A program made the position numbers and the translations under genes. A stretch of 64,000 nt of DNA from Perkinsus chesapeaki. Its lineage: Eukaryota; Perkinsozoa; Perkinsida; Perkinsidae. Below, one piece after another: positions 29,961 through 63,614 of this stretch. The first letter of the stretch is position 1. Each line of letters opens with the position of its first letter. The stretch is from contig JAAPAO010000001.1 in assembly GCA_013115145.1 (NCBI GenBank), forward strand, positions 268,529 through 332,528, given 5' to 3'. A model generated the notes under the pieces. That model saw nothing but the letters and a program-made list of their open reading frames with translations, did not search any database and was not told where the DNA came from.

Positions 29961-30027
29961 GGACTCAAGTGACATCTGATTATAATGTGCTTGAGTACAA
30001 GTTCAAACAGCGGCCTGTTGCCCATAA

Positions 30028-34175: not shown

Positions 34176-34248
34176 AGCCTTCTGCCGGAGTCGAACCGAC
34201 GACCTCCCGCTTACTAAGCGGGTGCTCTACCAACTAAGCTAAGAAGGC
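34176..34248 (-). tRNA. tRNA-Thr (anticodon AGU)
   Basis: Full cloverleaf on the minus strand: acceptor GCCTTCT/AGAAGGC, D arm TAGCTTAGTTGGTAGAGCA, anticodon stem CCCGC/GCGGG with loop TTAGTAA (anticodon AGT), variable AGGTC, T arm GTCGG-TTCGACT-CCGGC, then a T run at its 3' side. There is no intron. The A and B boxes are intact, so it should be transcribed by Pol III. Confidence 0.96.
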
Positions 34249-35276: not shown

Positions 35277-35682
35277 ATGTCAATACTGACTGCCTTAGTT
35301 CTCGCTCTCGCTCTCATGAGCACTGCCGTGGGAAACCCGTACCCACGGTTTTCGCCGGCATGGTGGGCCTGGGAGCAAGAGTGTGGCCAGGGCCACGTGG
35401 TACCGAATGAGGGGTCCGGCGGGTGCTGGGAGGAAGGCATGACCTCAACCAGCCCCACTCCTCTACCCACCACCACACCACCGCCGGATGATATCGGCTC
35501 GGAGACAACTGAGAGAAATTTCCGAGCCCACAGAAGCAGTGGATCGAGGCCCATGTAAGTTTTGCTGAGGAAAATTCACTAAATTACTGTATAACTGTAT
35601 AAAGACTCTCTTGCTTTTGTTCAGGCTCGATCTAATTGGGTACTGTGGGTTGCTGACTTTGGCCCTCTACGGCGGTCTGTGA
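35277..35682 (+). CDS. NPxPxFSPAWW family secreted protein, member 1
   Basis: Two exons (35277-35554 and 35625-35682) give 111 residues. Residues 1-18 form a signal peptide (MSILTALVLALALMSTAVG), with the predicted mature end at NPYPRFSPAWWAWEQEC. Then come a second Cys (GGCWEEG), a Thr/Pro-rich linker (TSTSPTPLPTTTPPPDD) and a hydrophobic C-terminus of about 18 residues (LIGYCGLLTLALYGGL) encoded by the last exon, like a GPI-anchor signal or a tail anchor. The intron is phase 2 and its last exon is 58 nt, exactly as in member 2. The protein is probably displayed on the cell surface or secreted. Function unknown; I know no family with this motif. Confidence 0.7.
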
Positions 35683-36849
35683 AGATAATCAGCTCATCAA
35701 AAGGTACGTTCGAGTGAGACTCGCTCGAGTCGTGACTACGTAGTTCGTACGTAGTGATTCACGACTCTTGAACTTCACGACTCGTGGATTCAGACACAAT
35801 TCAACAACGTGACTCTTCCTCAGTTACCTCGGACCCAGGCCTTATTTGATGAGCACCAGTGGTGGTAATGCCATCCCTAATTAATATGACTGAGACGGGT
35901 CCAATCGTACATTGCAGTGTTGTCATAAAGATATATCCACATTGTTGAGTTACGAGTTAAATTCCAAGGTTTTCGATAATATTTCATAACTCTCAAGTCG
36001 CGACTACATGGATTTCTACTAGTCAGCGTTAGAAAAGAAATGAGGCAAGCTTCAGAGTCTGACCATACCTCCAATTTAGAAAAGAGGAGTTGCACAGCGG
36101 AAGTTGCGCTTGTTAACCGCGCGCGCCCAGAAATGGGCCCCCAACGTAAAGTACGCGCACAGTTTGTCCACGTCCTACCACGGCGCCACAATTGCCCGTA
36201 CTACCATTCATAGGACTCTCCACCAAAGACTGTAAAGTAGTGTCTCTGACCGCTAGTAGGTGACACCCCACCAGGGTTTTACATCACTAGGTGTTAGTAA
36301 CACCGTGTTACCTACTGCGTGATACGAGATCCAGACTTCAGATGGACGGGGTAGGCGCGTGGGAGTGACATGCGTTTGTAGACTGACGGACAACCAAGGG
36401 ACATGGGCCTGAGCGAATTGAAGCTTAGCTCAAACCACAACGTGTGCAAGACTTAAACTTCAAGTTGAAATACCCGAGATGGAGATAATCCCCAGGGGAT
36501 TCCCCATCGGGGAAATTACTGAACGTTGAGTTACTAAAAAGCGAAGATGCACGATGAAGCCGTGTCAGGAGACCACTTCAATAGCGGAGGGACTCTCAAG
36601 CACAGCAGCAGACCAGCCGTAGCCACTGGCTACTAGCCAGAGGTATTGAATTTCCATTCACTAACAACCAAACACCAACGAAGAAAGAAAATGTCATGGA
36701 GCTCATGGCGAGTCAATTATACAAATGGTTTCAATGGCAGGCGCTGTGCTTGCGTCCGTTCAACAGCTGCCGTCGAAGGGACATCAAATGCAACATGACA
36801 TCATCGTATTCACAGCGTGACCGTAGAATAACAGATGCTGGAGATCCGG
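35683..36849. other. Palindrome-rich spacer
   Basis: No gene supported. At about 35725-35767 lies an interrupted inverted repeat (GAGTCGTG...CACGACTC with inner ACTACGTA/TACGTAGT). Further short palindromes include CCCCAGGGG and TCCCCATCGGGGA near 36490-36512. Confidence 0.5.
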
Positions 36850-39800
36850 TCCTGTATGGCGTCAACGGCGTTGAGCCTCGGAAATTGAACCTACATGAAT
36901 CCAGCTCAGGAACGCGACTACCACCTCAGAGCGATTCGCACGCATTGGGAGTTGCACTTCGTTCCGGTGTACGTGGCGTTCCAGTCTCTCTATTTCCTGA
37001 CATGCTGCGGTAGCAAGATGTTGTGAATCCGCTGGACCGTGCGGGGATTCCAGTAGACGCCTAAAGTCGAGGACCATGACACCGTTTAATAAGGTACAAA
37101 CGACAGGAAACCATGCACAGGCCTGGCGTTGGGTTAAGAGCGAATAGCAGGTGCCAGAAGCAGCTCACCTGCTCCAGTCGCAGCTTTTCGCACCGTCGGT
37201 CAACTTCCCTTTTCCACTGCATATTGCGCTCATAAAATCGACTGGCCTCGGCAGCTGAATAAAGGACACCCCTCACTGTGGAATGTACGGAGTGTTCGAC
37301 GAGATGCTCGTTATCAGTCATTTCCTGAGAAGACAGGATGGGCGAATGTAAGCACTTATACTGGGACTATAGTGATGTAACTGAAGACGATCCACGTGGT
37401 AGGAGAGCTGCAGACTACAGCCTGTAGTATAACTCCATCATTCTGTCACACTGCAACTGTGAACCACAGTGTCACCCGCCGAAAGTTCTATCTTAAAACT
37501 TCAAGAGCCGAGACTTGAGAGCAATTCAAGTACTGTTATACTATAACTTACGAACCGTTATACATGAGGGTTATAGGCTATTGATAGTAATCGATTATCT
37601 ACTCTCTATATACCATCATTACTACAGGATAATCCAAAAGGGACCACCCACTGAGATATCATGCTGCGTGGAAGAATGTGTGTCTTATGGGCTCTAAACT
37701 CTCGCAGAGGTCTCCCTCATGCTTCACGAGCGGTTGATGAAATTCGGGCAACGCCCAGAAATATCTCAATGATCAATACGCCCATCAATCAATGAACAAT
37801 AGACTATACAGAAACGGATGCTGGCTAAATCCGGTTACATTCCACAGATTGCCCCCTTAGCATGCTGGACGAGCCCGAACGGGTTTGAGTGCTAAACCGG
37901 CTTCAAAAGGGGTCAATGATCCCACAGGTACCCCTGCCTGTCATGCTGTCACACAGTCTTACAGCACTGACATCTTTGAACGCATAACCCTGTAGATAAC
38001 TGAGTCGGATAAACCATTCAGAATCTAGAATACAGCAGCCTACAGCAGTTACCGCCCCCCTTCTAGTGAGAACAGCGAGTCGAATTGACCCTCGCTCACC
38101 TTAGCTAGATCCCGTCGTTGCCTCGCCCATTCCAGTGTCCTCTCTCTCTCCACTTTCCAGGCTTTTGTCCGCTGATACATACTATCCAGATTACGAGGTA
38201 CACTACTCGACCTAGTAGTTGCTTTTCGTGGTGATAAACGAGGTGAGAAGGTGCACTAACACACTACCATCAAACACACACTTGAAAAAAATTACCTCTC
38301 GCATCTCCTCAGCTGCTTTCAGAGACCTTGCCTGAACCACCTTTTCTTCTTGTAGTCTACAACGCTCGCGAGCTCTAGAGTATATGTCACTGCCTCGGGA
38401 TGGAGCGGTGCGGGGAGTTGATAACTGGTTAACTTCTGGGGTTGCTGTTGAGCTCCGAGGAGTTACGGGTGGGGCAGCGAGAGCTCTCTGAGACGCACGC
38501 CTGATAACGAGCATAGAACACAAGCTTAAGATTCCCAGTGACAGTAGTGTACTTCATCTCACGCGAGTGTATGGCAGAGTATGAGCCCATACATTTCCGC
38601 CCATGAAAATCCCTAGAAGAATGCTCAATATCTTGCCGGGTCTCATGCACACTAGGCTCACTAGTTCTCCGGTGCCGACCTGAAAACGAGCGAAAGATCA
38701 CGTTAAGGGGACAATTTCTCCGGAACTGAGCCTCACTCATCTTTGTTTTATCGGTAGGAGCTAGCGCAGTTTCGGGCACAGTTGGATGGCGAGTTGCTGT
38801 CTTCCCCAGCGACAAACGCTTTGCAACAGGCTTGATTCCACGCAAACTCTGTTTGGCCTTGGCCGCATTTTGCATTTCAACTCGCAAGCCGGGCTCATCG
38901 TCCCTAGGCGGATCCTCCTCCGTTGTTGTATGGGAGCTCTTCGCTTCATTAAGCGTAACATTCACTCCCTCATCTGGCAACATACTCGCTACTGGTTCAT
39001 GTGCTGCAGTCTGGGCCAACGGCGAATCTCGGTACCGCTGCCCTGCTTCGGGCGTTCGGTATCCTGAGCTAGCCTCTGTACCGTGGAGGTTAGAATACGT
39101 CAAGGCCCTAGGCTCAGAAGCTATATCCATCGAGCTTTCACTCGGCTTTGAATGACTATCGTCCCTCCGAAACGGGCCCTGTCGACGTGGTGTTAGCAAC
39201 GCTTTGACAGTCTTAGGGTGGGTGTCCTTCGCCGCCCTCGGGAAACGGCCATCATGATGATCATCGATGATGGCATCATTGATATGTCGACTAGTTTTTC
39301 CCTTTTCTTCCCGCATGCAGTGCCCTGCAAGGCGTTGCTTATCAAACTCAGTTCTTGTTCTAGGAACTGTTCGCCTCAAAGCTATATCAGAATCCTTGCT
39401 TGACAGCCTTCTGACCTATAGGATAAACTGTTACTGTAGTAACAGGGGGTACTACAGTAAGAGATAAAGAGCCTGCTTCAGACTGTCGAGCCTTCGATCG
39501 ACTGCTCCCGTGATTTTCTCCCCATGCGGCTTGGCCTTTTCCCGCAACCCTCAGCCTGGCTATCTGCTGCATTTTTCTGTACCGATCTTCTTTCGAAGTT
39601 TCATCTGGTAGCTCGGATATTGTCCCTCGCGAGTTAGGTTGAGCCTCGACGACCTGGCGACGTTACACATCGGTTACACCACCAGAAGTACCGGTCGGGA
39701 ACAGTTTTATAATCACAAAGAGACCTGCCTGCCGTTCGCGCCGAGTCACAGTAAGTTATTGTCAATAACGTAAAATAGGGATTCAATACTTGCGACTTGA

Positions 39801-40185
39801 AGACTTCAAGTTGAAGTCTAATGCCTCCCTCATCACCTTAGGATCGGTTGACTCCGAGCGAAACTCTTCCGAAGGGCGTTCGGAGAGCGAACACCGATTG
39901 CCACTCCCTACGCTGAAATCACCAATACCAAATTTTTCACTTTTGAGTCCCGGCAGCGAACGATCGCCTGAGGTATCCAGCCAACAATCAACCGATGACA
40001 AAGTCCTGGGTACCAGATATGGTGGATGGCGAAAGATCGCTTATTATCGTTCGTTGTATCCGTTCTTGGGCTGCACTAACCCTGCTTTGAAGCTCAATGG
40101 ATTCCCAGTTCGATAGGTCGGTCACCACATCGGGTGACAGACACCCCACGGGAATCTCAGAGGGTGAGCTTCCCGATTCGGTCAT
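36850..40185 (-). CDS. Disordered/coiled-coil protein with repeated short motif
   Basis: From the ATG at 40185 (MTESGSSPSEIPVGCLSPDV), exons join through gttagt...cccag and other short introns into a large mostly disordered protein, with its long exon at about 39412-38545 (AKSSHTTTEEDPPRDDEP, FSGRHRRTSEPSVHETRQD). The C-terminal exons carry a repeated charged helix: IYSRARERCRLQEEKVVQAR, MYQRTKAWKVERERTLEWAR and FYERNMQWKREVDRRCEKLR. The repeat (aromatic-x-R/E-R...W/R-K-x-E) resembles units found in many protist cytoskeleton- or flagellum-associated proteins, though no named domain can be assigned. Junctions near 39840-39665 and 37215-37075, and the 3' end, are uncertain. The gene lies between members 1 and 2 of the NPxPxFSPAWW family on the opposite strand. 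Confidence 0.5.
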
Positions 40186-40735
40186 AAAATATATTATACA
40201 AGCAATTAATCAACTGAGAAACGCGTTTATTAACCGCATGTACATACGAAACCAAATACATCTTTGGTCCCTGCCAGGCAGTGCCCAAGCCAGCCAGGTT
40301 TAACGTGAATGAGATGACCTCATCATTAGGCGACCAACGGCTGGTAATACTCAGCCAATAGCACAGTACTACCTGCCCCTATCCTATCACCCTGCTATCC
40401 TATTAGACTGTTATCCCTTTCATCGGAACATCCCCACCGTAAAAGCGTTCCTGTTGACAGCAAAGAACGAACTCAAAACAGACAGAAAACGAGAAATAAT
40501 CATTAACATTTTGATCCATGATCACAGTGTGAGTCGAGATACGCTGAGAGCGCATAACAAAACTCGCTCGCCCGAAATCGATCGTCCGCGACCGACAACA
40601 TGTGAACCGTTGTATGCATCACTAGGATAATGTCGCAAGTTGGTCACAACGAGAAATCGGACTCGACCTGTCATTTACAATTGCATAAACACTAAGGGAA
40701 CTTAAAGTTTCAGTTCGTTTTACTAATTATCACCA
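40186..40735. other. Divergent intergenic region
   Basis: It lies between the minus-strand coiled-coil gene and family member 2, so it should contain both promoters. No named motif or further gene is seen. Confidence 0.4.
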
Positions 40736-41131
40736 ATGCCGTCTTATATGGTCCTCATCGTCATCGCTTTCCTCTCCGCCGTGGGAGTTGCTGGGGAGAA
40801 CCCGTATCCTAGGTTCTCTCCAGCGTGGTGGTCTTGGGAGGCTGAGTGCAACCCGGATTACTCGGTCGGTAATGAGACTTTTCCCCATGTGGAAAACAGC
40901 AATCGGCCACCTCACCTCCCTTGGAAGCCACTTCACAACCCTGGGAGGATGGCTCGGATGTTACTACTACATGGAAACTCCGAGCCAGCGACAAAAGCGA
41001 TGCCAAAATGACGTAAGTACATTGTCGATAAATATTGATTTGTATAGTCTGGAATGCTATTTGTTTTCTTCAGGTATTCAGCTCTCGGCTCATGGGGATT
41101 GCTCACGGTGATGGCGGTGAATATTCTGTGA
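40736..41131 (+). CDS. NPxPxFSPAWW family secreted protein, member 2
   Basis: The signal peptide MPSYMVLIVIAFLSAVGVAG is followed by ENPYPRFSPAWWSWEAEC. Read without splicing, the frame ends early at 41009-41011. If a 35-nt GT-AG intron at 40865-40899 is removed, the frame runs through a Ser/Thr/Pro-rich linker (QSATSPPLEATSQPWEDG) to a phase-2 intron (41013-41073) and a 58-nt last exon encoding YSALGSWGLLTVMAVNIL, hydrophobic as in member 1. That gives 99 residues and the same last-exon size, so I favour the spliced model. The alternative is a frameshifted pseudogene. The probable role is a surface protein of unknown function. Confidence 0.6.
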
Positions 41132-41776
41132 GCGACAGTGATGACCACGTAGGTGGGTGAGCCAGTAACAACATTCAACACACCCACGATTCATGTCCTC
41201 TCAGGTGGTCTGCAAGTGCGAGAAGTACCATTTTCTAATTCGTTGGATAAACCTGCAAAGCAGTTACTTTCATAGTGATTTGCGTTCATAGTTCTCGGGG
41301 GTCCCTACGCAATTACACTTGGCATGAATTGCACAAGGTACTTGGCGTAGTAGTTCCGTGCTGTAGAATGGCTCTACATGGTCTACGAGACTCGATAATC
41401 GACTAGTACCGAGTTGCAACATTTGTTCGTTATTCTCATAGGCCACCCTTTATCACCCGCTCCCGCCAGGCCATAAGGCTCCTAGTGAACACCATTGGTA
41501 GCATAGGCTTCTAGTGAATGCATGTATCCTTAGTCGGTTACCAGCCGAGTCTCCAATGTCTGGCGTATTCATCTAACTCTTAACCACGAATCGCAGAGAC
41601 ATTTAGAAAAACTACCGCACGACCGTCAAGGCTGTTCACTGCATTACCTAGTTCCTATTCCCAGCCTGCCTGTAAGAGAGTTAACACAACATCTGGCCGT
41701 TCCTATGAAACCACCTAGTCATTAACGTTTTCTAATAGTCCCAAAGCACCATCAACCCTTTAACGGGATAGAACGG
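41132..41776. other. Intergenic, nothing recognised
   Basis: No supported gene between family member 2 and the 3' end of the SF3B3 gene; the two genes converge. Confidence 0.4.
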
Positions 41777-44700
41777 CTACAACACGCGGTTGCGAATATC
41801 CTCCAATTTCTTCATGACCTCCTGCGGAGTCTTGTCCATATCGACAGCGATCTGGCGTTGCTTTTCGGCAGGCAGCTCATAATATCTGATCACAGCCACA
41901 CGTTAGGACAGTTCAAGCGCACAGTTGGTCCTAAAACCAGCTGGACACCTAACTGTGCAGAATACCCTCTCATTGGTATCCGTATACTTTCTAGAAATTA
42001 CCCCCATCGTGCTCACACGCCCACTTACACTTCACATAGATCGGCATCGATGAAGTTTTTGACAGGATGGTAGAAGGAGCGGTACATAACGTGTTCGCGC
42101 CCTGTTAGACTCGGAGAAGCTGCAGTATTCCGCATATGCATCTCAAGTGCCTAGCATGAACAGTCCACACTACAGAGCAAAGCCGAGTTTTCGGCGGCTA
42201 CCTGCAGGAAGGTGTGCTCTCGCTTCGAAGAGAAGGGATACAGTGCCCCGATAGTTCCGAGAACCGTAGAATATATGATGATTTCAGCGCCACCCGCTAC
42301 CATTGTCACCTGAAATAGTTACAGTAGTGGAAGCTCATAGCTATAACGATCCATTACTCTTTGAAGCGAAGTTACCGTCTCTCCAACGTGGAAGTGGCCG
42401 ATCAAATCCATCTGAAGGAACAACCAATGATTTCCGCCAATGGAAGCTGGTGAATGCAGATCGACTAGGCGCAGGGTACCGAAAGGATCGATCATAAATA
42501 TACACCTTACTTTAAATGTATTGCCGGATACATAGTCATTATCACGACCAGGAACCAATCTCAATGTAGATATGCCTTCAGCCTCAACGACAGGACTGAA
42601 AGTCGGTAGACTGTGAAAACGAAGATGAAGTATACTACAACGTACCGTCCCCAAGCACCAGCGTCCTTGGCATCTGAAGGTACTCGCAGGATGGCGAGGT
42701 TGTCAAACTTATCCCCAACAACTATGGTCTGCGGGCAAGAAGAAATAGCGCATCACTAGAGACGGTAACATCGAACTCACGTTGTAATCAAGTACAGCCG
42801 CGGCTGTGATGCACCTCGGATAGGTATCATCCGAGATAACCTACAAGACAGCAGCCAGGTCACAGTCCCATGAGTTGTAACGGCAAGACTTACCTGCATC
42901 TGATTGTCGCTGTACCTCCATCTCAAAACCATAATACTATCCCTACTATCAGCGGCAAAGATGCGATCCTTGTTCACATCGAGCCACATAATTCCACCGG
43001 ACTCCGGTAAGAACTTATACTCACATTTTTTCAGCAGCCGCTTTTTGCCCAATTCGTAGATCCTGAACCCACACGCAAATCCATGCGCAATGTCTATGGT
43101 AGAGTCCTTACCGTAGAACGGGTGCCACCGTTGGAGACCCGCGCAGGGCAACCAGTAACCGTCCTTCGAAGGGATACATTGCAGAAGGGACGCCTAAGCA
43201 GAGGCGTGCATAGCTGCAGTCGAGAAGCGAGCCTCGTGGACTTACCTTCTAGCGGAGTTACGTGAATGAGCTGTAGGTTGTAGCTCTCATCGTAAAGATA
43301 CGTCTTGATGTAGCACTTGCCATGGGCCGATCTCGAGGGATTATGTGGATCGACACCAGTAGCAGTACCAACTACGAGACACGGGCGGTTATCCTGACAT
43401 TCGCAATGTCGCCATATAATAAGCCTAGGGAATCACCTTGAGCTGGTAGAAATAACAGACAGTCATAGCAGTGGCTGCCTCATCAACATCAAGGTCCAGC
43501 TTGAAAGAGGTAGATGCTGTCAGAGGGTCTACCACTCGGATACAGGAGCCCCATTTCCCATGCCCAGCGATATAGGTTCCCACCTAACGACCAGATAATG
43601 CCAAGATGAGGTGCTTGGCTCTTACTTGGCTCTCTGGTGGAGGATCCATGTCGGTATCATCGTCCTCTCCAGCATCAACCTTGATCTTCCTCAAGGCTTC
43701 CCTAATCTCCGCCTTAGTCTCTTCGTTATAACTGCGATTATAATCCTTACGGTTGAATGGCATATATAGGCCCTACGCATTGTGATCAGACTCCATAACA
43801 GCAAGCATGATCCTGTTGTCCATAGGAACCGCATCAGTCTGTCCAGATAACAGCTTTGGTGGAGGAAGAGGCAAGAACTTCCTTCCAGTGTAGGAAAGAG
43901 GCACCATAACCTGACGAAAGGTGAACGTCACGATGAGGAGTAGACCACAGCCTCACCTGATTAAAGGTCTCATTCAGCCTTTCCACACTGACAATCCTAA
44001 GAACTCGCTGGCTGGTAGTACATATGCCTTCCTGACAGTTCTCAATGCTGAAGGGGGCGGCCAGATCGAACCTCGGCAAAGCCGGGATCTTGCTGCTGCC
44101 GGGTGTGTCTTCATCCTCAGCAGCGGCGAACCTACCATATCCGAAAGTAACATACACCGTTAATGTTGAAGAATCTTACGTTAAAGGAACACACTGATAC
44201 TGACCACCAGAAGCTCCAGCAGCTGAGTAGTCGTTGGCTTGGAAGCACAGGAAAGGTCGTGCGCTCATCGCCACCATTGCTGGGCGCCCACCGTCGACAG
44301 TAAGAGGGCACAAAGTAACCTGAAAGAATATTCCAACATCAGCTGGAGTGCTGAGTGGGATAACTTACCCGTCGTGGTCCCAGCACACGCTGTCTCTGAT
44401 CCGATAGCTGCCCTGTGACACCATCGATGACCGACCGCACCAGTACACCATCCTCGAGACCGATCGCCAAGTAGAGCGTGGAAGTTGTTCCCTGGCCGAA
44501 CTGCAACATGCAGACAGATGAAGCCGTGGTCCTAAGGGCCTGTGCTGCTAGCTGCCTTAATGGACGATCAGAGTCCAAGGAAAGAACACGGACAGATGAG
44601 TCCACACCGGCCACAGCCATGAACTGACTTCGAGTTCGACCAGATGGAAGAGGTTGCACGCAGAGGGCAGCAACCTCGCAGCCAATATCACGCTTGGCCA

Positions 44701-46827
44701 CCTCACTGAGATGACCATTGGTATCAGCATCAAGTTCGAACAGCTGTATTTCACCACCAGATAAAGCAATCACCACTTGAGAGCCATTGCTGGCAGCCAT
44801 CGTGACCTGCCTTCCAGGCGGCGCTCGCCACTCAGTAGTTCTACGACCGGCTGCAACGTGACGGATACCACTTGGCATAACCTAACAATAAAGTCCCACG
44901 GTGATGCAGGTTGACCGTAATTGATCACGAGGCTTACCTGTATAGCACTCTTATCTTCCATCCTCATGGCAAAGAGTGTCGGCTGATCCTTAGCGAATCC
45001 TGAGTCCGTAACTTCATGAATGTTATCAGAGGTTACCAATAAGGTCAGAGTTTGATCCACGAATGACACCACGATGTACCGATCGGACTCGACCTCACCC
45101 TCGGACACCGGCGCATAACTAGCACCGAAGGGCTTAATCGTGAACAACGCGTTTGGTTGGCCTGGCAGTTCTGAAGCCCCAGCTTCCCCAAGTGTTAAAC
45201 CATGTCGTAGGATCCTCAGGGCAGACCTTGGGCCTCGACCAGACAAGGCGTATATCTGGCATCCAGCCGACATACCAGTTGTAACCGTCTGCTGCATCCC
45301 GCTTCCATCTTGCTGCATAACCTGCGTCTGTGTACTAAAGCAGTCCATAACCTTCATATCTGTGATAGGAGCCAAGCTGCTAAGCTCGTCAAACGGAGTG
45401 AGGTTCTTGAGATTCCGAGGTTTAAAGGCCACAACAGCGTTCTCTCTATTAGGGTGTGAAGAAGTGACAATTGCTGGACTCTCATCACCAAGGCTCGCAA
45501 ACTGGTATAAAGCGTGGTTGCCGAACTCCGATGCCGCAAAGAGGAAACCGGTCTTCAGGACGCATATGGAAATGGCCACGGGTATAGAGTCGAAGTAACT
45601 AACATTAAGAAATTGAAGTCCGGTACAGGATGCTGAGAACTTACCTGCATTGAATCTCAGATACTACTCCCTCCTTATGGCTAAGGGTCACCTTGTAAAG
45701 GTCACCGTACTCAGACTGTATGAGGAAGAAGAAGAAGTTCTTCAGCTTATGTCGACTCCAGCAGACCACCATCAGACCTTTTTCAGCTGGAGTATCCAAA
45801 CGTCTTGGCATGGCACATGACAGTACTGGATGTCCCTGAAGCCAGCCATCCCTCTCGAGCCACCATAAACACCCTACCTGCTTATAATATGAGAGGAAGT
45901 TCTCGCAGCAAAGTAGAACACCGCCAGGACCATCGGTGCCACCTGGAACTGGTATCAGGTCGTGTGCCGAGAAGGGTATCTTGTCGCTGTGCTTTCTAGT
46001 GACCTACCCCCAAGAAAAGTGTCCGTATGCTAAGACATGTACACCTTACATGATTAACGCCGAGGTCCATCTCATACATTGTCAGGAGCTTCTGCGGATT
46101 TGGTCCCTTCTTACCAAAGTCATCGTACCTGCATGGCAATAGGTTAATGGTCCCCGCCCTAGAGATGCAACACTTACTGGCACTCGATTGCGGCGTACTG
46201 GGGGTTATCGAAACCGACATCTAGCCCAACCGTTGCGAAAGCAATGGTGTAGCTTTTATGGGCCTCCAATGGGGATGAAATCGTGAGTCTCGATTGGAGA
46301 TCTCTGTTGAGAATATAGACGAATTTTTGTCGTTCCACGGCGGAGACCATACAACTACGCCCCTTAGGATCAACCGCCAGATACTGACCAGGCACGGTAC
46401 GTCGGCAACCCCTAAGAAACCCTTATAGGAGTCGCCCTAATCCAGCCAACTTACGTCTTTCCATAAGTCTCTTGATGAACCTTATCAAATACGTTCTTGG
46501 TTGTGTTGTATTCGAGGATCACAATTCGCCCAGAATCCGAGCCAACGAGCAGATAGTCTCTGTTGGCACCGACCAGTCGGAATGTCTCTAGCGAGCGTAT
46601 CAAGCCAAAACAATTCACCGATATAACCGTCTGAAGTCTATTTTGCTCATCTGGGCGGAGCAGCTCCAGAGTCGACCCTAAACTGTCAACTGAAGATCGA
46701 GACTAACGGACGAAACACTACCTCTGGCCACAACGATCTCCTGGGCCTTGGGTGCCGAGAAGTTACCGTAGACCGCACACGCGACGGCCGAGGTCTTCGA
46801 CAAGGTCAAGTTATAGAAGTGAGGCAT
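41777..46827 (-). CDS. SF3B3: Splicing factor 3B subunit 3 (SF3b130), many introns
   Basis: The start [20 protein letters not shown] at 46827 and the stop after [11 protein letters not shown] at 41777 match the two ends of SF3B3. In between, on about 20 exons with 45-60-nt introns, are clear landmarks: [157 protein letters not shown] and [11 protein letters not shown]. It is the beta-propeller (CPSF-A/DDB1-like) scaffold of the U2 snRNP SF3b complex, which helps recognise the branch site. Length agrees with about 1200 residues. Some exons in the middle are short and I did not place every junction. The 3' introns near 41.9-42.3 kb are longer than the rest. Confidence 0.93.
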
Positions 46828-46993
46828 TTCCTAGGATGCCAACAATAGCAGCCACCCCTACTGAAAATACTATTGCAGGCGATAGTCGAATAAAGAAACA
46901 CATAACATAGGAAACAAACGTGAGAAGACGCCATGATTAGAAACATCATCACTTGAAAAAATGGCTTGGCAGACTCATAGTGCCGCTAGTCAC

Positions 46994-48508: not shown

Positions 48509-48610
48509 ACTTTTAAGAGAGAGTAGCGCTATGTAATCAATTATCCGTACTATAACGCACGTCAAGTGGAACAGGATCAAATACACAACTAACCAAGTTA
48601 CATGAACATT

Positions 48611-49926: not shown

Positions 49927-50319
49927 ATGATATTCCGTTTGGTACTACTCCTTTCTACGATGCAGACGAGTGCTATATGCAGCCAGAACCCATTTCCACA
50001 GTTCTCACCTGCTTGGTGGCAGTGGCTGGCTAAAAACTGCCCTGAATGGTCGCTTGGAGGTGACCAATCCTCGTCTACTCTCTGCGATATCGAATGGCCA
50101 ACGCCACCGTCTAGCGATGATACTAATGACCTGGCTATTGCTACACCATCTGCGACTGACCTGGTTACAGATTCGGAATTCACTACTGACTTGGCCACAA
50201 CAACCACTAAACCGGGCCTGAGAGGAGAGCGTAGCATGTGCGCCAGCTCGCAAACTGGCGTAGCATCGTATTTGGCCCTTATGGTGGCAGTTCATCTATC
50301 CGCTGCCCTGTTTCTGTAA
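49927..50319 (+). CDS. NPxPxFSPAWW family secreted protein, member 3
   Basis: One uninterrupted frame of 130 residues. Signal peptide MIFRLVLLLSTMQTSAICSQ, mature head NPFPQFSPAWWQWLAKNC, then Cys in TLCDIEWP, a Ser/Thr/Pro-rich linker (TDLATTTTKPGLRGE) and a C-terminal hydrophobic stretch (SYLALMVAVHLSAALFL) of the kind removed on GPI anchoring. A Ser/Ala/Gly site (CASSQTG) lies about 8 residues before it, suitable as an anchor site. Unlike members 1 and 2, no intron precedes the C-terminus. Its clear single-frame structure supports the architecture inferred for the others. Confidence 0.75.
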   Translation: MIFRLVLLLSTMQTSAICSQNPFPQFSPAWWQWLAKNCPEWSLGGDQSSSTLCDIEWPTPPSSDDTNDLAIATPSATDLVTDSEFTTDLATTTTKPGLRGERSMCASSQTGVASYLALMVAVHLSAALFL

Positions 50320-54092: not shown

Positions 54093-54535
54093 TAACGTTG
54101 GCCGTATTCTGTTTCCAAAAAAGTATCATATTCACGATTGCACAATAGGTTTATAGGCTTTACAAGTATGTAGTGGACATATCCTGAAGTTGCTGAACTG
54201 ATTGAGTCACCGTAGTTTGGCTGTTGTCACTTGGTCGTAGAAATCCTTTTTATCAACTCTCTGTTGCGTTAGTGAATCTTACACATTTCTATGCCCATCA
54301 ATGACAGGGTGACGTGGTATTGATGAAGTGGGGTTGTTACTATTGCTTCACTCGGTCTTCGATCGTTCGTCACAGGTTGTCCAACGACAGTCCGTAGCCT
54401 ACGTAACTGCCTTCTGGAACTAGGCTTGCGTCGTGAATAGCCCTCTACATGGGATTAGTACCAACTAATAGTAGTAACGCGACGCCTCTTCAAAACAACT
54501 GGACATAAATGATACTCATAGTGCTTCTATGGTCT
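54093..54535. other. Convergent intergenic region
   Basis: It lies between the 3' ends of the E2 and Dpy-30 genes. Nothing else is seen. Confidence 0.5.
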
Positions 54536-55257
54536 TCATTTCTTCTCTTGTACCTCTGAACCAGCAGCTTCTTCCGTTTCACTATTCGGTTCCTCCTTTT
54601 CTTCTACCACATCATTCTCTACCTCTTCATCACCTTCCTGTACCTCATTGCCCTTCGGATTGTGCTTCAATAGATATTCAGCCACGAACGTCACTGGATC
54701 CTCGGGCCGCTCCCGAGCGACAGCATCGAGTGCTGGAACCAGAACGGGCGCAACGGTCTCCTCAAGCCACTGTCGGAGGGGGAGCTGCTGGGGCTTTGGC
54801 ATGGGCGATGGCTCCTCGGCGGCCCTTTCGATCTCGGCAGCAACTTTTCCATTTGGATATGCCTCACTTTTACCTAGAAGATATCAGTGTGGATGTGTCC
54901 GGGACTCTAGTGGATGCAAATGGTACTCAATTCTCATACGCTAGTCCACGGTTTAGCTTGTACAGCCAAGAGGATAGTCTGTACTGCAAGGAACATATGC
55001 GCTTCCAAAATGGCTGACCACTACTACACCTTGAGTACCCGGGTGTATTTCCAGCGAAAGGACAAAGCGACGGAGCTAGACGCCGAATAGGATAAAATAT
55101 ACTAAACACGCCCAGTATCACCTTCCTCTGGAGCATCACTCTTTTCTTCATTAACTGGAGATGTAACCTGGTCCTCCTTCTCTTCTACCTTCTCCTGCTC
55201 GTCCTCAGCAGGGACGGTGGGGGTCTCGGGGTCCTCGTGCGTCTCGGTAGTAGACAT
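54536..55257 (-). CDS. Dpy-30 domain protein
   Basis: Exon 1 from 55257 encodes an acidic start (MSTTETHEDPETPTVPAEDE). A long intron (about 250 nt) separates it from exon 2, which continues GKSEAYPNGKVAAEIERAAE and then the Dpy-30 motif: LPLRQWLEETVAPVLVPALD and AVARERPEDPVTFVAEYLLK, matching the two-helix dimerisation motif (YL..TV.P.L..GL...A..RP.dPi.fLA.YLL) of DPY30 and RII-like proteins. The tail is very acidic (EVQEGDEEVENDVVEEKEE). Dpy-30 proteins act either in Set1/MLL histone methyltransferase complexes or as docking parts of the flagellar radial spoke. The longer acidic tail does not decide which. It starts 89 nt downstream of the Myb gene on the same strand. Confidence 0.82.
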
Positions 55258-55346
55258 TTAAAGAACACTCTATCTTTACCAATAATCATCCACAGACCTC
55301 AAACAGGAAGGTTTGATTAATTCACTAAACTCGAGCTCATAACAGT

Positions 55347-57222
55347 TCAAGATACTCGCTCTCCTCCTTGCGCTTCTTGTCGCTGCTCTCCTCCTTGTGC
55401 TCCTTGTTGCTGTTCACTTGTCTGTGATGTAGACGGCTCAGATTCGGCTGTTATAAGCCTCTTAAAATCGCTCGGTAATATCTCTGGGCGTTCGTCAGGT
55501 ATGAGCCCTCCTCGCATAACAGCTCTCCTAGTCTCCCTTTCCTCCTTAATTCTTTTTACGTCCTCCTCGTCCGCGATCTCATTCCACTTTCTCAGTAAGA
55601 AGTTATCAGACCGCTTCACGAAACTCTGGCTAATCAGCGACCACTTCGGCCCGAATTCGTCCACTAACGCCTTCAGCAACTCAGACTCCTCCTCAGTCCA
55701 AGGCTCCTGATCGTAGCCCTCGCTTTCATGACATATTTTCTCATACCGCTCTCGACATGACATATTGGTCCGATCCCGAACAAGCTCAGCTACGAGACCC
55801 CAGTCAATCCTCTTGCCTGAGCACTCAACCATCTTTACAGCCATCTTTAATCGCTTGTTCTCCTCTACAGTCCACATAGAGCCAATACCTCGGTGTCTTT
55901 TACTAATAAGTTTTCCATACCGCTGCCTCAGCTGTGCTGGCGTGTGATGAGTCCCCATCTCATAGGCTATCTCATTCCAACACCCTTTACCATGCTTCTC
56001 GGCGTACTTCAGTAACGTTTCTTCTTGCTCCCGTGTGAATGTCTTTGGCACAGCTACAGGATCCAAGCTGCGATGATATCTGAATAGCCGTAATAGAAAA
56101 GTCATTGAAGTAAAGGATTGTTGACTTACCTCTGGAAGCATGAGCAAGGGGTGCGGTTGGTGCCCAGCTCAGCAGCTATGGACGCCCAATCCAGATAATG
56201 ATGCTTCTCTGCTAGTTTCAACAACTGTGTATCCTCCTCCTATAATAGAGCTCCATACCAACAGCAGCGCTCTATATTGTTGTTACCCTTGTATATTCAG
56301 AAGTGTTAATCCCAGGTGCTAGCTGATGTTGCCACAGTGCCCTAGCGCAAGCCGGTGTCCGACAATGACGCCATTCAAGTGACTCTCTACCAGATTGGCT
56401 TATCAGTAACTCATATACTCTACGCCAGTTTATTTCCACAACGACATCAAGCTGGGTAGCCAGCTGCTCGATCTCGTTATAGCCATCACAGTTATCTACC
56501 TGCAGCAGCACCACAGACTTCACTTCACTTCAGCCCAATCCCCTACCAATTGACGAATCTTATCTCGGACTTCTGGAGAACTTTTCCCGGATTCTTCATT
56601 GAACAATGAATTCATTATACCTTCTTTAACGTACTCTACAACAGCCCATTCAACGGCTTCACGGTCCTAAAAAGTATAGCAAGTGAAAACATCCACAGTG
56701 GTTTAGGCTACTACCTCTTTAATGTCCCGCGAGAGTACTCTTGTGGCGCTGAGTGGTCGGAGGTTTGCAATGGCATACTGGTCACGTTCGTAGGCTTCCA
56801 CCAACTTAGAAGGAACATTAGAGTCATCACCGATGCAATCAGGCCTGGATGAAGACATAGTGGCGCCGACGGGGGTAACCACAAGCGCGAGTCGGGGAAG
56901 GAGCGGTATGAGACCAATTTGGAATCACCTGCACGCACACCCAAAACTACCTCAAAGATTGGAACCATCGTTTCGGTCTCCGCCGCGTAGACAAGTCCTC
57001 CTGTTCCATGAAGTCTGTTAATGTATTCCTATGGTTTTCTAGTCTTCCTTGTATTCGTTGGTTATTCTCTGAGCACTCTTTTAATTTTTTTATTATAGTA
57101 TCAATATTTGCAACGTAATCATTGTTCAACTTCGTGGCACTATCGAGTCCACCACTCTGACCGCCACTTCTTGCGGCACTCACGGCCTCCTGTAGTCGTC
57201 GCGTCTGCCGCCTAGTTCGCAT
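55347..57222 (-). CDS. SNAPC4-like multi-repeat Myb protein
   Basis: The start at 57222 (MRTRRQTRRLQEAVSAARSG) leads through a coiled coil (NIDTIIKKLKECSENNQRIQ) and several exons to four to five Myb repeats: INWRRVYELL...CRTPACARALWQHQL, EEDTQLLKLAEKHHYLDWAS with TNRTPCSCFQRYHRSL, FTREQEETLLKYAEKHGKGC with HTPAQLRQRYGKLI, MWTVEENKRLKMAVKMVE with TNMSCRERYEKI, and EPWTEEESELLKALVDEFGP with KRSDNFLLRKWNEI. The RTP..CFQRY.RSL link between repeats is typical of SNAPC4, the large Myb subunit of the snRNA-activating complex, which binds the proximal element of snRNA genes. The tail is Gln/Gly-rich. It would act in the nucleus in transcription of snRNAs. Junction positions in the first third are approximate. 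Confidence 0.75.
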
Positions 57223-57352
57223 CGTTATCAACAGTAGCGTGACAAGATCACTGCCGTAGAAGCCTCCTCTTGCTTTCTTAGTAAGACTTGTATTTTCTTC
57301 ACGTTACATTCTCACTATCAGAACGGCTCACCATCACCCAACACGTACTGAG

Positions 57353-58448
57353 ATGGAGTTTAATGCGGCTGCGAATGAAGTGACTGAGGGCTTCCAGGAA
57401 ACCAGCAAAGGCGTGAAAATCCGGCCAATTTGCGGCCCAGTGGATCCTAAAGTGGAGGAAACCGCCAGCGAGCGGATATGTCGTCTTCGAGGTCTTATCT
57501 CGAACAGAAAGGGCTCCAGCAGAGTTGCACTATCCAAGCCTGGAAGACCTCTGCTGAGCTTCGATAAACTCCGAGATGAAGCTGACAAGGAGGATGAGAA
57601 TGATGAAGGGCTTGTTGTGGAGTTCATCGATCGGAGGCGCAAAAGCTGTGGCCGGAACACTCTGAGAAAGTTTTTGGATAGAAGCAAAGCGCTTCCTGTA
57701 TTCACCGTTCCTCGTCGGCCCTTAGCTGCAAATGACGAAGCTCCTACGGCAGTCCGACAGCAGATGCCAGCTGGTAGAATAGAAGCAACTCCAGCGGAGG
57801 CTACCGGTGCTAAGGGGCTACATTCGAGCATCGTCATGCAGCCTAGTGAGGAGCCTCGTAGAGGGGAATATTGCCATGAGGAGGATCGAATGGAAGGGGC
57901 GAAGCGTTGTGAGGCCCCGGAAAAGCGGGATAGACTGAGACTAAGACGAAGTACATCCGAACCCGACTTGGCCGTTCGTCGGAGCTCTGCTGGCAGCGAA
58001 GACATCGCAGCTGCCGAAGAGTGCAACTCGGAACCCGAGGATTTCATCAGGAAGGTGATGATGTATCATACAGCTAAGCTGGTTGTTAGTGATCCTTAGT
58101 CCAACCGAAAGAGGAAAGTGAGGAAACGGAAAAGGAACAGATTTGTAGACGATGCAGCGAGCGAATCGGGATCAAATATATCCGGTGATGAAGATGAAGA
58201 AGTGGACGGAGACGGTACGCAGAGGAGGGCACCAGCTGAAGGGCTGTAATAATGAGGCGGGTTCCAATCCTTCAGGCTACCTATCGGATTTAATAGCGAC
58301 AGACGTGGAAAGTGATGCATCCGACTGTGATCCACGATTCTTGCATCGGCAATGGGAAGAGGACATGGGGGATAGGATGCTGAGAGGGATATTTGGCAGA
58401 GGTGAAGTTCACCGCTTTCGAATCTCTAAAAAAGAATGGTTCAAATGA
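57353..58448 (+). CDS. Basic/acidic nuclear-type protein, family unknown
   Basis: Exon 1 (57353 to about 58053) encodes a charged, mostly disordered protein (LLSFDKLRDEADKEDENDEG, RLRLRRSTSEPDLAVRRSS). A 46-nt intron (gtgatg...ccttag) joins it in frame to SNRKRKVRKRKRNRFVDDAA and SESGSNISGDEDEEVDGD, and a second short intron (gtacgc...cttcag) to GYLSDLIATDVESDASDCDP and a stop at 58446-58448. The basic patch KRKVRKRKRNRF is a likely nuclear localisation signal. The order FVDDAASESG...DEDEE recalls acidic tails of some DNA-repair helicases, but no helicase is present, so I assign no function. It diverges from the SNAPC4-like gene with a 130-nt shared upstream region. Confidence 0.6.
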
Positions 58449-58769
58449 CAGGTAGAATCTCTCGTCGCCGTGAAAGTAGTCTCGGAGGGATGTTATTCTC
58501 GGGCATCCAAAGGGAACACCAACAGCCAACTTCACTAGTAGCTGCTGCTGATGCCTGTAGGAGACAACGGCGACGACGCTCCTGTAAGTCCGAGATGACA
58601 TCGCTCTCACTTCTGGCACAACGGTGTATTAAGCAGCAGCTATTGATGCGTGCTCCAGTGCCATGATAGATCGGCGATAGTTCCTGTTTTAGCTGCCTAT
58701 GTTTTTCAAAAACTGCTATTATTGTTAGACTGCAAGAATCGTGGATGTCTAGGTTTCGGTGAGGGTTCT
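58449..58769. other. Short spacer, nothing recognised
   Basis: A short + frame (58436-58666, RRQRRRRSCKS) overlaps the end of the previous gene; it is probably chance. Confidence 0.35.
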
Positions 58770-59352
58770 ATGGATACATTCAACCCGAATAGAAAAGTGC
58801 AAGTCATAATGAAGGAGAATAAGGAACGGCTTCTTAATGCAGCGAATCGTCAGGCTTCGACGGTTACCGAGCCCAAAGAAGGAGGTTGTCATTGGATATG
58901 GGCTAACCGTTTCGCCAACATGCTTTCCCTTTAGGAAATGCAGTGCACAGCCGTGCTAGTCCCCTGGTAAATAAATCCCTCAAACGCGTGTCCCTTGGGA
59001 TGCGCGACGAGGCCTGCGAGTTGAACCTTAAGAGGACCGTCGGGTGGGTATTGTAGATCATAGAACGGCGGTTGCTGTTGGATGGAGCTCCGAGCCACAT
59101 TCCAAATGCTATTACATTACTGGGTGTCTCCAGGATTGATGAGCCTCCTCGTTGCGCGCCAAACCCACTGCAAGTAATCCTATAATGCTTAGCTACAGTA
59201 GGCGTATATGCTCCCCTAATTGATAGAATTCTGACATGGATTCGTTGAAAAGCTCAGAAGCGTGCGGTTTTTATTCTTGTCGTTCTTCAGGTTTGTCCGC
59301 CGACGAAGCTCTCGAGGAAGACCAGCTGGCGTGTTTCTTAGCGGTGGTTTGA
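58770..59352 (+). CDS. Small four-exon protein, family unknown
   Basis: From the ATG at 58770, exon 1 encodes MDTFNPNRKVQVIMKENKER and LLNAANRQASTVTEPKEG. In-frame exons follow: GNAVHSRASPLVNKSLKRVS with LGMRDEACELNLKRTVG, then GIDEPPRCAPNPLQ, then NSDMDSLKSSEACGFYSC and LSADEALEEDQLACFLAVV, ending at TGA 59350-59352. All three introns (about 48, 84 and 53 nt) keep the frame. The protein has about 125 residues, is helical at the start and has several Cys near the end. No domain recognised. The continuity over three introns supports it, while the weak donor of intron 1 (gttgtc) does not. Confidence 0.45.
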
Positions 59353-59698
59353 CCCACGAAGTTGCAGTCCGTCAAAGGTCCACTCGGTTCGTGTCCACCA
59401 CATCTGTGAAGTCTCAGCATGGAGTCCGACGTTTCATATTTGGCGCTTGAGTCGGAATGTCATCTCAGCGTCGTCATCCTTCCGATCGTCCGGACGGAAG
59501 ACCTTCCACGATCATGGAGTACACTATTGCTTCTCTCTAATTCCATATTGTGTTACGAGTAACCCCGTGAGCAAGTGGCTCGTACGGGGACATCCACCGC
59601 CCTGGATCAATACGCTCGCATGCTTGTTTGTGAATGTAGTTCAATACTAGCAACACGATAAATCGATTATCAGAAACATCACTAGGAACCATGCAATG
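59353..59698. other. Convergent intergenic region
   Basis: Nothing supported. Confidence 0.4.
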
Positions 59699-62302
59699 TC
59701 ACCGGATGCGCTTCCTCCGGAATAATGTTGCAGCTGATGCCTGCGCCCAGAACACGCCTACAAGGAACATGACTAAGAACACTACATAACGACCATCAAA
59801 CCAACCTGGATCGACCTTCCCGGCTTGATCTTTCACCATGTAGGGGTGCAGCATGTGTCGAGTGACCTTACCCAGATCTCCCGATATCTCCCAACCATCG
59901 TATCGAACAGGCGATATTCGTTTCTCAGGGCAACCCAGGGGTAAAATGCCCCATGTATGGTAAGCGCTTCCACAGCTACGACCACCCAAAATAATGTAAC
60001 GCTTAAGGCAGCCCATTGCTCGTAGTTGAGGAGTCAAGTCATCGAAGCCGTCCCGCAGATGAGTAACTATCGCTGTTTGTGGATGGTAATGGTTACCAAC
60101 GTCCTCTAGTGTAGCCTTGACTGCAGCTGGCCATTTGAGCCGCCCTGTATAGGGGCATATGCTGGGTCTGTACCCGAAATGCTTTGGGAACATTGTGGTC
60201 TCTACAGCGGGACTGTCATCAATCGCAGTTGGTTTACTGGAACACTCCTCATTCTTCCGCCATGGCCTATCCTTCTCAGTTACTTGTTCCTTCGCTAGGA
60301 TATCGAGTGCAATAACCTTCACTGAGCTCTTGGGCGCTATCGCGGCGATGACCTCCGTCAAGAAGTAGCTTAGCCTGGTTGAGTCGGGCCCTACTACTAA
60401 AACATTGCTGCTGTATTGTAGGCAGTATTGAACAAGCGCCGTTATGAACTCATGAGTGATAGCGTAACTTGTGATATCACCGAGCGAATGCAACCAACTC
60501 TTCATTGGCCGACTAGGAAGGGGTCTATGCCTCGATCCCAATTTCGCGGTCTCCCAGTCAACAAGGTAAGGTAAGAGGAATTCATCGTTATCACCTTCGG
60601 CAGGGATCCGCCTGGTCGCTGAGAAGTACTGTCATTCCCCGCACGCCAGCCATGGCCTACCTATGTTCTCCAGTACCCATCTCTTGCTCGGGTCTGATAT
60701 TCTCAGTTTCTTTATATCATCGCTGGTGTCCAGAGAGCTCGCTAATTGATTCTCATTGTAATCGTACAGCGCGAAAGCTTCTTTGACGACACCCTCGGGT
60801 ACAAGTTCAGCTGGGCTGTACGACACTAACGACTCGAACGCGGCCTGGCTGCCATTGCAGTCTATCTTTCGTTGCCGCAATTGCGCCTTCTCAATCTCTG
60901 AACGAAGGTTGTCGCCAGCCTACATTCGGTAGTCCGAATATAACCTTGAACGAGAGCTAAGCTCCATAATTTGAGATTTATAATCGCTAGGAAATGTGGT
61001 AGCTCCTTCCGCATCGCGCTCATATAAATTTTCACTCGTTTGTTCCGATAATCAGCGTACCTACAAAAAGCTACAGTCGTCCGCCATGCTGAGCCGAAGG
61101 CATCCACTCACTGCCTCCAGAATCTCGAGACGTGATTCCGTACAAGTTCGAAGACTTTGCCCGGAAGAAACCTCATCCATGGCTCCATATGAGCACCGTT
61201 ACGTAGCGGACCCGATCGGAACGTCATCAACTCCAGAAACGTCTTGGCTGGTGTCCTGAGCGACCAGACAAAAGTTAAGGTTATATACAGACAGCGACAT
61301 ACCCTAGTTTTGATGCTTCCGGAAGATCGTCATTATTTGGAGGGCCGATAACGCGCATGCAAGTAGGCCGTCGATAAATTCGATGATACACCGCCTTACC
61401 GTTGACTACAGGAATACGATTTTGGATGGAATGTTTCCTGGCAGGAGCCCACATTTTGTTCGGTCATCGAAGAGAAGCCAATCGTTGATATCCGGTGGAA
61501 TGGCCTTGTCAACAGAATGTATCCATTCTCTAAATAAACGAGTACCGATGTCCACACTAGCGTGAAGTCATAATACCCAGCCACTCCAGATTCGCTGTAT
61601 TCACTATATATGTGGTCTACAATCTCCGCCATTTCCTCGCGGCTAACAAGGCTAGCTGCGGCAGCTGGATCATCAGGATATTTACCTGAAACATACAGTA
61701 TCTTGACTTTTAACTATGGTATGCTCTCCACGAACCATGCATGTAGGCATACGCTGAATTGAGCTCTTGATTAAGCGTGCGGCGAACCACACGCCCTCCC
61801 CATTGTGAGTCCAAGTTATTGCCTACGGAGGCATGTTTGAATCAAAATTTGCCATAAGTGCTACTTGTGGACAATGCCCTTTCAAGTGCAGAGAGTTGCA
61901 CATACGTTTGCATTGGTTCTTGCCTTAAGGCAGCATCCTTTATCTTCAATAGATGCTGAAAAATTGGGGTGTAGCAGCTAGAGATGGCCACGAGCCTTCA
62001 TGATGTTAGCTTACATCTCCGGTTTGGAAAGGATTCTTCAACATCGATGCTGAGAAGAGCTCAACCGGTTCCACAAACCCCCTGGTGGCCTCTATGATCC
62101 CCTTCAGAATAGGGTCTCGAACGAGTAACGTAGATGATGAACTGCTAATCGTCGGTGGCTCTGGTTGTGTTAGCAAGATTTGCTCAGCATTGTTAGTAGG
62201 CTTTGATGGGATCGCATCGGCTGCCTGGGGGATAACAGAGGCCCTGGTCCCCTCCAATTTGAATCGAGGAATCCTCCTGTGAGCTCGAAGACTGAATGGC
62301 AT
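59699..62302 (-). CDS. Multi-exon protein with C-terminal membrane segment, unknown
   Basis: From the ATG at 62302 (MPFSLRAHRRIPRFKLEG) about ten exons follow, including LLKIKDAALRQEPMQTYVQL, NNLDSQWGGRVVRRTLNQEL, KYPDDPAAAASLVSREEMAE, REWIHSVDKAIPPDINDWLL, YRRPTCMRVIGPPNNDDLPE, KTFLELMTFRSGPLRNGAHM, YADYRNKRVKIYMSAMRKEL and FESLVSYSPAELVPEGVVKE. The last exon (about 60620-59699) has LVQYCLQYSSNVLVVGPDST and VKVIALDILAKEQV, a pattern like the first strands of a Rossmann fold, then RYIILGGRSCGSAYHTWGIL and a hydrophobic segment YVVFLVMFLVGVFWAQASA before a basic end (LFRRKRIR). The start may be a mitochondrial targeting or basic leader. I recognise no family. Several junctions, above all near 61.0-61.3 kb, are approximate. 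Confidence 0.55.
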
Positions 62303-63481
62303 TACTAATTGTGAACTGGAACTAATAGGAACTGGAACTTCCGAACTATTCGAAAAGACGGGCGCGCGAGTGAGGCTAGTTCGATCCCAGTTAATGTACT
62401 ATGAAAAAACGCAACCGCAACTAAGATCTTGCGCCGAGATTGCGAGGGAACAGTGCATGCAACGGCCTGAAACAAACGGGCGCAACGAATTAGCAAGAGA
62501 TATAAATATTCGTATACTGTGACACTATGGGATGGAATTACTCATCAATAATCACCAAAGCACTCGGAAGTCAGCGTCGTCGATACTCACAGTTTCATAT
62601 CTAGCTGTTTCACCAATACCGTCCCAGAGGACACACAGCGTGCCAGACTTGCGCAGTGCAGACCTTTCCGGAACGAAATTTCCTACGGGAACTCCAACCA
62701 GGGGATATGCTACAGAGCTACTAGTAGAATTGCTACTGTAGCAACAGAGATGCGCATCCCTACACGGGATGGCATTCGCTCATCTATGGGACTATAGTCA
62801 GTCTCACCAGCTGCTCGTAGACGAAAGGTGAACGATGTGCAGAAAAAAGTACAGAGCACCGTCTCACTGTGAGACTCTCACGCGCGGACAAAAATACTGA
62901 GCGGTTCAATAATGGGTCGCTAGGAATAACGGCTGGGGATAATGGGTCGTTAGACTCGGTTCGAACTGAACCGTTCAACTTGAACCGAGTCTAACGACCC
63001 ATTATCCCGCGCATGTTGCGCAGCGCAACGGCGTCCAACGAAATCCAAGGTTCTACGGTTGAATGATTCAACCTGAATCATATTCAACAAACGATACGTG
63101 GGATCCTCATAATGGGGACTTACATACTAATTAGGTTGCTTACCAATTGGAGCATTGGATGACCTGAATCTTGGTTATCAATTTGGTTTGAAATGGTTAT
63201 TAACTTAATAACCACTTCCACGGCTCATAGTGCTGATACATCCTTCGTCGACTCCGGAAACGATATCGTCGACTGTGTCATTCATGGCCTAACTCCATGG
63301 AAGTTCCATGATGGAACGGTGAGTTGGATGTGGTTGTAACATTGAATGGTGTTCAGGTGTGATCCGGACGAACGCCGCATGAATTATTCCATTTAACGCA
63401 TAGTGCGTGAAGCGTTAGATCCTTGTTCAGTTTCGTGTAGGGTTTATGAGTTAATAGTTACTCATAACTGCAGCAGTTAAT
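62303..63481. other. Palindrome-rich spacer
   Basis: No gene is supported. It contains a 27-bp perfect hairpin (62936-63008), a degenerate direct copy of its left arm at about 62908-62925, and the palindromic 22-nt word at 63296-63317. Confidence 0.55.
62936..63008. repeat. Perfect inverted repeat, 27-nt arms
   Basis: Positions 62936-62962 and 62982-63008 are exact reverse complements, with a 19-nt loop between them. Long perfect arms of this kind suggest recent origin, gene conversion between arms, or a small foldback element. Confidence 0.95.
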
Positions 63482-63614
63482 TTGCTTCTGCTTACTCGTT
63501 ACTGCTTTGCAGACGTTGACCCACGGCGAGAACCCATTCCCGAGATTCTCGTCGGCATGGTGGGAATTGGAAGAAAACTGTCTATTTCTACATTCAAATA
63601 ATAGACTCAATTAG
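63482..63614 (+). pseudogene. NPxPxFSPAWW family relic, member 4
   Basis: The frame reads a hydrophobic stretch (LICFCLLVTALQTLTHG) followed by ENPFPRFSSAWWELEENC, the family head with Pro to Ser at one position, and then a stop at 63612-63614 after only 14 more residues. No ATG is found in frame: a TAA lies 9 nt before the hydrophobic stretch. There is no Thr/Pro linker and no C-terminal tail. It is most likely a truncated, inactive copy, unless an upstream exon supplies the start (a ctgctttgcag word precedes the head). Confidence 0.7.

Follow-up and report, generated by a model that had tools for sequence, protein, structure and literature searches.

A small family of putative secreted proteins with a conserved tryptophan-rich head in Perkinsus chesapeaki

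The head-bearing genes and their surroundings

The stretch of DNA analysed here (hereafter the window) comprises 64,000 nucleotides from Perkinsus chesapeaki, a species of the alveolate genus Perkinsus, and corresponds to bases 268529-332528 of contig C1 in an assembly of 35.4 Mb and 884 contigs; the end of the window coincides with the end of this contig. Molluscs are the hosts of Perkinsus parasites. The killing of oysters and clams by Perkinsus species has been described (PMC2868825, PMC10800547). In a six-frame translation of the window, the pattern NP[YF]P[RQ]FS[PS]AWW, hereafter the head, is matched exactly at 35334, 40799, 49987 and 63531, always on the + strand and at the four places given in an earlier note on this DNA, and a scan allowing up to four substitutions revealed no head in the window beyond these four. 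The genes that carry the head, together with the features lying among them, are listed below.

35249..35251, + strand: CAG after a pyrimidine run, upstream of the start of member 1; possible (trans-)splice acceptor
35277..35682, + strand: member 1 (FOL47_000089, 111 aa), exon 1 35277-35554, exon 2 35625-35682; head NPYPRFSPAWWAWEQEC at 35334
40736..41131, + strand: member 2 (FOL47_000091), signal-like start, head NPYPRFSPAWWSWEAEC at 40799
44.3-45.6 kb: RSE1/DDB1/CPSF1 propeller gene, between copies of the head family
49927..50319, + strand: member 3, single exon, 130 aa, head NPFPQFSPAWWQWLAKN at 49987
53.1 kb: ubiquitin-conjugating-enzyme exon
55.3-56.1 kb: Myb gene
63468..63614, + strand: member 4, probable relic, head NPFPRFSSAWWELEENC at 63531

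Unrelated genes are thus interspersed among the copies of the family. The two exons of member 1 are separated by an intron of 70 bases with GT..AG ends (35555-35624), and exon 2 encodes LDLIGYCGLLTLALYGGL, the hydrophobic tail of the protein; the public model FOL47_000089 is identical. Most introns in P. marinus genes are likewise shorter than 100 bases and have the canonical GT-AG borders (PMC3101222). Member 2 has an in-frame TGA at 41009-41011, one base ahead of a GTAAGT donor (position 41013). Further on, positions 41074-41131 form a tail-like stretch that encodes YSALGSWGLLTVMAVNIL in a frame other than that of the head. Counted from the acceptor, this stretch has the reading frame of exon 2 of member 1, and both are 18 codons long; the gene of member 2 looks broken, mis-assembled or unusually spliced. 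The model FOL47_000091 joins the head to another downstream frame, lacks both the hydrophobic tail and the S/T/P-rich linker, and bears the UniRef name of an alpha-carbonic anhydrase domain protein. The linker of member 2 also contains two tandem copies of 21 bases (80% matches) at 40906-40946, a hint that the length of the stalk changes through short in-frame duplications. In member 3 a signal-like start, the head, an S/T/P-rich linker, the residues GLRG and a hydrophobic tail follow one another in a single open frame. Member 4 is a 48-codon open frame in which no ATG occurs from the preceding stop to the head; the earlier note had called it a relic, a status that these features make likely and that is uncertain because the copy lies less than 0.5 kb from the contig end. 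As member 2 is without an in-frame tail and member 4 is apparently dead, two of the six copies known in the assembly (see below) are damaged or mis-assembled.

Upstream of the start codon, a [CT]AG trinucleotide at a distance of 19-29 bases was found in all five members that have a start codon, and in 294 of the 1149 ATGs of the window. Furthermore, a pyrimidine run before an acceptor-like site is present within the upstream 70 bases in four of these five members, 40736 being the one without it, and at 299 of the 1149 window ATGs. Spliced-leader trans-splicing is known in Perkinsus (PMC2868825, PMC3101222), and the upstream [CT]AG sites, as candidate acceptors, would fit this mode of expression, which is no proof of transcription.

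The window also contains a segment of 4 kb that is present twice in direct orientation (19537-23528 and 30027-34003) with an identity of 97.5%, and a 137-base piece of which recurs at 25040-25175 (92.7%). The largest + strand frame of either copy had no match in Pfam, no inverted repeat was found inside the copy at 19537-23528, and a flanking duplication was not obvious; the segment looks like a recent duplication or an unclassified element. Just past its second copy lies a tRNA gene on the - strand (34176-34248; Rfam, 67.2 bits).

Copies in the genome and relatives in databases

When the whole assembly was searched with a 33-base degenerate version of the head pattern, allowing up to three mismatches, seven matches were found on the forward and none on the reverse strand, and the reversed control pattern gave none on either strand in the same search, so the head is not a product of chance. 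Five of the seven matches are exact, and those on contigs C539 and C829 have three mismatches each. The match on C829 was rejected as chance since its frame hits a stop within the head. The check that the earlier note had proposed added two intact members outside C1, which extends the family beyond the window:

C767, head at 85125: intact, 97 aa, single exon
C539, head at 4656: intact, 116 aa, single exon; accepted by its anatomy despite three mismatches

The family thus consists of six copies of the head in the assembly, four of them inside 28 kb of C1; such genome copy counts are lower bounds. In the alignment of the head, six of 18 columns are invariant. A relaxed pattern gave 37 matches (17 forward, 20 reverse), the top six of which are the family, and the remaining 31, at two to three mismatches, do not exceed the 32 that the control pattern gave. 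In addition, whole-protein searches of the genome with C539, 49927, C767 and 35277 brought no further convincing member: the C539 protein matched three members at E values of 5e-5 to 1e-3, and two of the searches gave two weak matches each at E 0.3-0.7.

The two additional heads lie near contig ends, at a distance of 3.1 kb (C767) and 4.7 kb (C539), and it is possible that both were adjacent to C1 in one array broken at contig ends. As a candidate explanation a single split array was set aside, no tested feature connecting the contigs. Nor did the contig ends show a telomere-like array: a search for five such motifs in three stretches (C767, last 2.2 kb; C539, first 3 kb; window, last 3 kb) gave a single TTAGGG. 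A recent segmental duplication of the head genes was likewise rejected, as the DNA comparisons show no similarity around the copies: the four window copies have none in common at E 1e-5, and at E 1e-3 the window has none in common with C767:76000-85999 or with C539:1-10000. Among translated frames of at least 70 codons from the C767 and C539 stretches, only the C767 member matched the window, and did so via its head, with the C539 member falling short of E 0.001 in this comparison. No repeat common to the copies of the head genes was found.

Profile searches over 5.8 billion proteins returned three proteins each (from 1302 and 3202 candidates), all of them products of the window. These searches require common five-residue words and similar length, and among 37 word-sharing candidates for longer head-bearing proteins none scored. 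The members scanned had no match in Pfam, and a search of PDB by sequence gave nothing meaningful (four rows at E 1.9-7.8, otherwise none). In NCBIfam a single match to a small-protein family, at E 0.45 and for one of the five members, was regarded as chance. Four head strings were also sought in the text of 5.39 million papers, where the sole match, to one string, was a paper on radar. As far as the protein database, Pfam, NCBIfam and PDB reach, the sequence comparisons therefore support a family that is apparently undescribed and lineage-restricted, in agreement with the earlier statement that no known family has this head. Neither C767 nor C539 was returned by the profile searches built with them, and therefore missing annotation could equally hide relatives in other Perkinsus; the absence of the family from other Perkinsus species in the searched database is weak evidence. 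That these two intact genes for short, putatively secreted proteins (L003 1432-1725 and L013 1432-1782) did not turn up suggests that genes of this kind are under-represented in protein databases, and the annotation of this genome may lack others.

Selection on the head and anatomy of the proteins

For the first 11 head codons, the 15 pairs of the six copies pooled give a pS of 0.82 and a pN of 0.11, i.e. a ratio of 0.14, which rises to 0.19 when 13 codons are taken; these values come from pairs that are not independent, from heads of only 11-13 codons each, and from a pool that includes the relic copy. The synonymous sites of the head are close to saturation, which shows that the copies are old and that its amino acids have been conserved. 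The head is under purifying selection, and the pooled ratio across copies lies far from the value near 1 that the earlier note had named as speaking against its reading. Identity over the five members with a start codon is 96/130 (0.74) in the 13 columns of the head, and only 31/197 (0.16) in the signal region and 117/569 (0.21) in the body, so that the great divergence outside the head, as previously claimed, is borne out.

In the three window genes, a hydrophobic signal-like stretch stands directly before the head, as the earlier note had seen, with a best 10-residue N-terminal hydropathy of 2.33-3.07; across the five members with a start codon this value lies at 2.33-3.33, except in C767, where the signal-like start is weakest and its 1.72 falls below the cut-off of 2.0; 21 of the 154 window frames lie above that cut-off. 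On the translations, with the -3 and -1 residues judged by eye, the head appears to lie either right at the likely mature N-terminus or some five residues from it at most. At the other end of the protein, 35277 (when spliced), 49927, C767 and C539 have a mean hydropathy of 1.36-2.26 over their last 20 residues and no charge in the last 15, so that by hydropathy a GPI-like tail is present in four of the five members with a start codon, and 40736 as assembled is without one. The claim that all three window genes keep a hydrophobic C-terminus holds, accordingly, for 35277, by way of its exon 2, and for 49927, and fails for 40736 at the in-frame TGA. Among the ATG-started window frames of at least 60 codons, three of 154 have so hydrophobic an end, and two of these three also have the N-terminal stretch, namely 49927 and a minus-strand frame of 87 aa; both cut-offs, for the end and for the N-terminus, were picked after the family had been seen. 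In a stricter anatomy scan covering the window and two stretches of 10 kb, only 49927 and C539 pass, and C767 fails.

Serine, threonine and proline together make up 0.36-0.40 of the linker in four members and 0.29 in 40736; hence a Ser/Thr/Pro-rich linker, formerly ascribed to all three window genes, is found in 35277 and 49927, with 40736 being poorer. In the window frames the mean content of these residues is 23%, and five of 65 frames, member 3 possibly among them, reach at least 36%, which makes the enrichment of the stalks modest. A second common feature is GLRG, which precedes the tail in three of the five members (49927, C767 and C539). As for the machinery, Gpi16/PIG-T (PF04113), a subunit of the GPI transamidase, is encoded at C94 with a score above the curated cut-off, and GPI attachment is therefore probably available to the organism; C13 peptidases are also encoded in the genome, a class in which Gpi8 and legumain are pooled.

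An AlphaFold model of 35277 was built from three sequences and is of low quality (mean pLDDT 56, pTM 0.26). It places helices at 2-18, 27-39 and 94-108, the second of them in the head, and leaves the linker unstructured; its best-scored ten-residue block is in the head, which has an extended start followed by helix 27-39. A fold search with this weak model gave no match and is uninformative.

Possible roles of the head

The best explanation, to which we would give an even chance, is that these genes form a small P. chesapeaki family whose proteins stand on stalks at the cell surface, probably with a GPI anchor, and in which the N-terminal Trp head is the functional part. If the genes are expressed, the signal peptide would route the protein to the secretory pathway and be cut off at the head or within a few residues of it, and the GPI transamidase would swap the hydrophobic C-terminus for a lipid anchor. 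A disordered, Ser/Thr/Pro-rich and probably O-glycosylated stalk would then keep the head off the membrane. The head itself, NP[FY]PRFSxAWWxWE, may consist of NPFPRFS as a short extended segment and, after it, a helix rich in Trp, and may bind one constant partner, be it a receptor of the host or of a sibling cell, a glycan, or a wall component; we propose that because of such a partner the head is conserved and the stalk and anchor signals drift. A surface role of the family is likely; that the head may serve adhesion or recognition is a hypothesis. A narrower version, in which the head is a new Perkinsus surface ligand for one constant receptor or glycan of the mollusc or of a sibling cell, carried on interchangeable stalks by a family confined to this lineage, is in our view rather unlikely. 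The head is constant and not diversifying, which would argue against its being a target of host immune pressure.

The strongest rival, in our view still an unlikely one, is that the head serves in sorting or processing, as a signal that a trafficking receptor or a protease reads, the remainder of the protein being cargo. It would account for a short conserved motif about 0-5 residues past the likely cleavage point on bodies that share little, and the purifying selection on the head fits it equally well. However, the cargo would be a short stalk without a detectable Pfam domain, ending in a GPI-like tail in four of five members, and the head, with its six invariant columns out of 18, is long for a motif of this kind; furthermore, one would expect a general sorting signal on a variety of cargo proteins, whereas the genome searches, whose counts are lower bounds, found the head on this family only.

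Perkinsus cells possess walls, and the family could instead contribute to the wall or coat, with the Trp head docking on a wall polysaccharide or self-associating, and no recognition of other cells being involved. We consider this quite unlikely: a conserved aromatic head on divergent stalks would suit a constant ligand such as the cell's own wall, and the head shows no sign of the diversification that host-driven recognition might produce, but no repeated assembly motif is visible by eye in the stalks. It is less probable again, and in our judgement improbable, that the genes encode precursors of a secreted peptide, i.e. a pheromone or an antimicrobial, with the Trp/Pro-rich head being released and the remainder serving as a spacer. 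The composition of the head and its place at the likely mature N-terminus agree with such a precursor; Trp-rich antimicrobial peptides are cationic, however, whereas the head has a net charge of -2 to +1 over 17 residues, no conserved dibasic cleavage site follows it (by eye), and a peptide meant for release would have no use for a C-terminal anchor, unless the protein is shed. Finally, that the copies are what is left of a mobile element, or of a family once useful and now in decay, is very improbable: one copy has no start codon, another has an interrupted frame, and a duplicated 4 kb segment lies in the same window, but four copies have a complete frame, the heads have lost synonymous identity and kept amino-acid identity, and the copies are without the similarity in surrounding DNA that a recent element would leave (thresholds E 1e-5 and E 1e-3).

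The reading as stalked surface proteins with a functional head brings to mind several known systems. In its predicted architecture the family is similar to TcSMUG/TcMUC, the small mucin-like GPI-anchored surface proteins of Trypanosoma cruzi, whose short precursors consist of a signal peptide, a short N-terminal segment, a Thr/Ser/Pro-rich stalk and a GPI signal. The conserved parts of TcMUC are its signal and GPI ends; the family described here, in contrast, conserves the head, while its signal and GPI ends diverge. PEXEL, RxLR and [YFW]xC, found in secreted proteins of parasites and fungi, likewise are short conserved motifs that come soon after a signal peptide on otherwise divergent bodies, but the Perkinsus head is longer, aromatic, and placed at or near the likely mature N-terminus, and it occurs on one small family only, together with a GPI-like tail. 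The P. marinus protein PmMOE1, compared here by its description alone, is a Perkinsus protein that has been tagged in the laboratory (PMC8062965). It has been used for GFP fusions, and its description there does not mention the head motif; the list of extracellular P. marinus proteins given there is short (PMC8062965). The family overturns nothing known about protist surfaces. A strictly kept and probably exposed head of 13 residues would be a concrete and cheap target for studies of binding at the parasite surface.

The alpha-carbonic anhydrase domain proteins are connected with FOL47_000091 by the UniRef name only. The assignment was rejected, as the members scanned have no Pfam match to PF00194, and the name is taken as automatic. 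At the six carbonic anhydrase places in the genome no match to the head pattern was found. One long frame was inspected at each: the N-terminal part is visible, and the head absent, at L015, L016, L018 and L019; at L020 the frame starts within the enzyme, and at L017 the frame examined is not the enzyme. The alpha-carbonic anhydrase frames of L016, L018, L019 and L020 (on C505, C46, C45 and C505, respectively) end, as judged by eye, in a hydrophobic stretch, and these enzymes are possibly GPI-anchored or membrane-bound.
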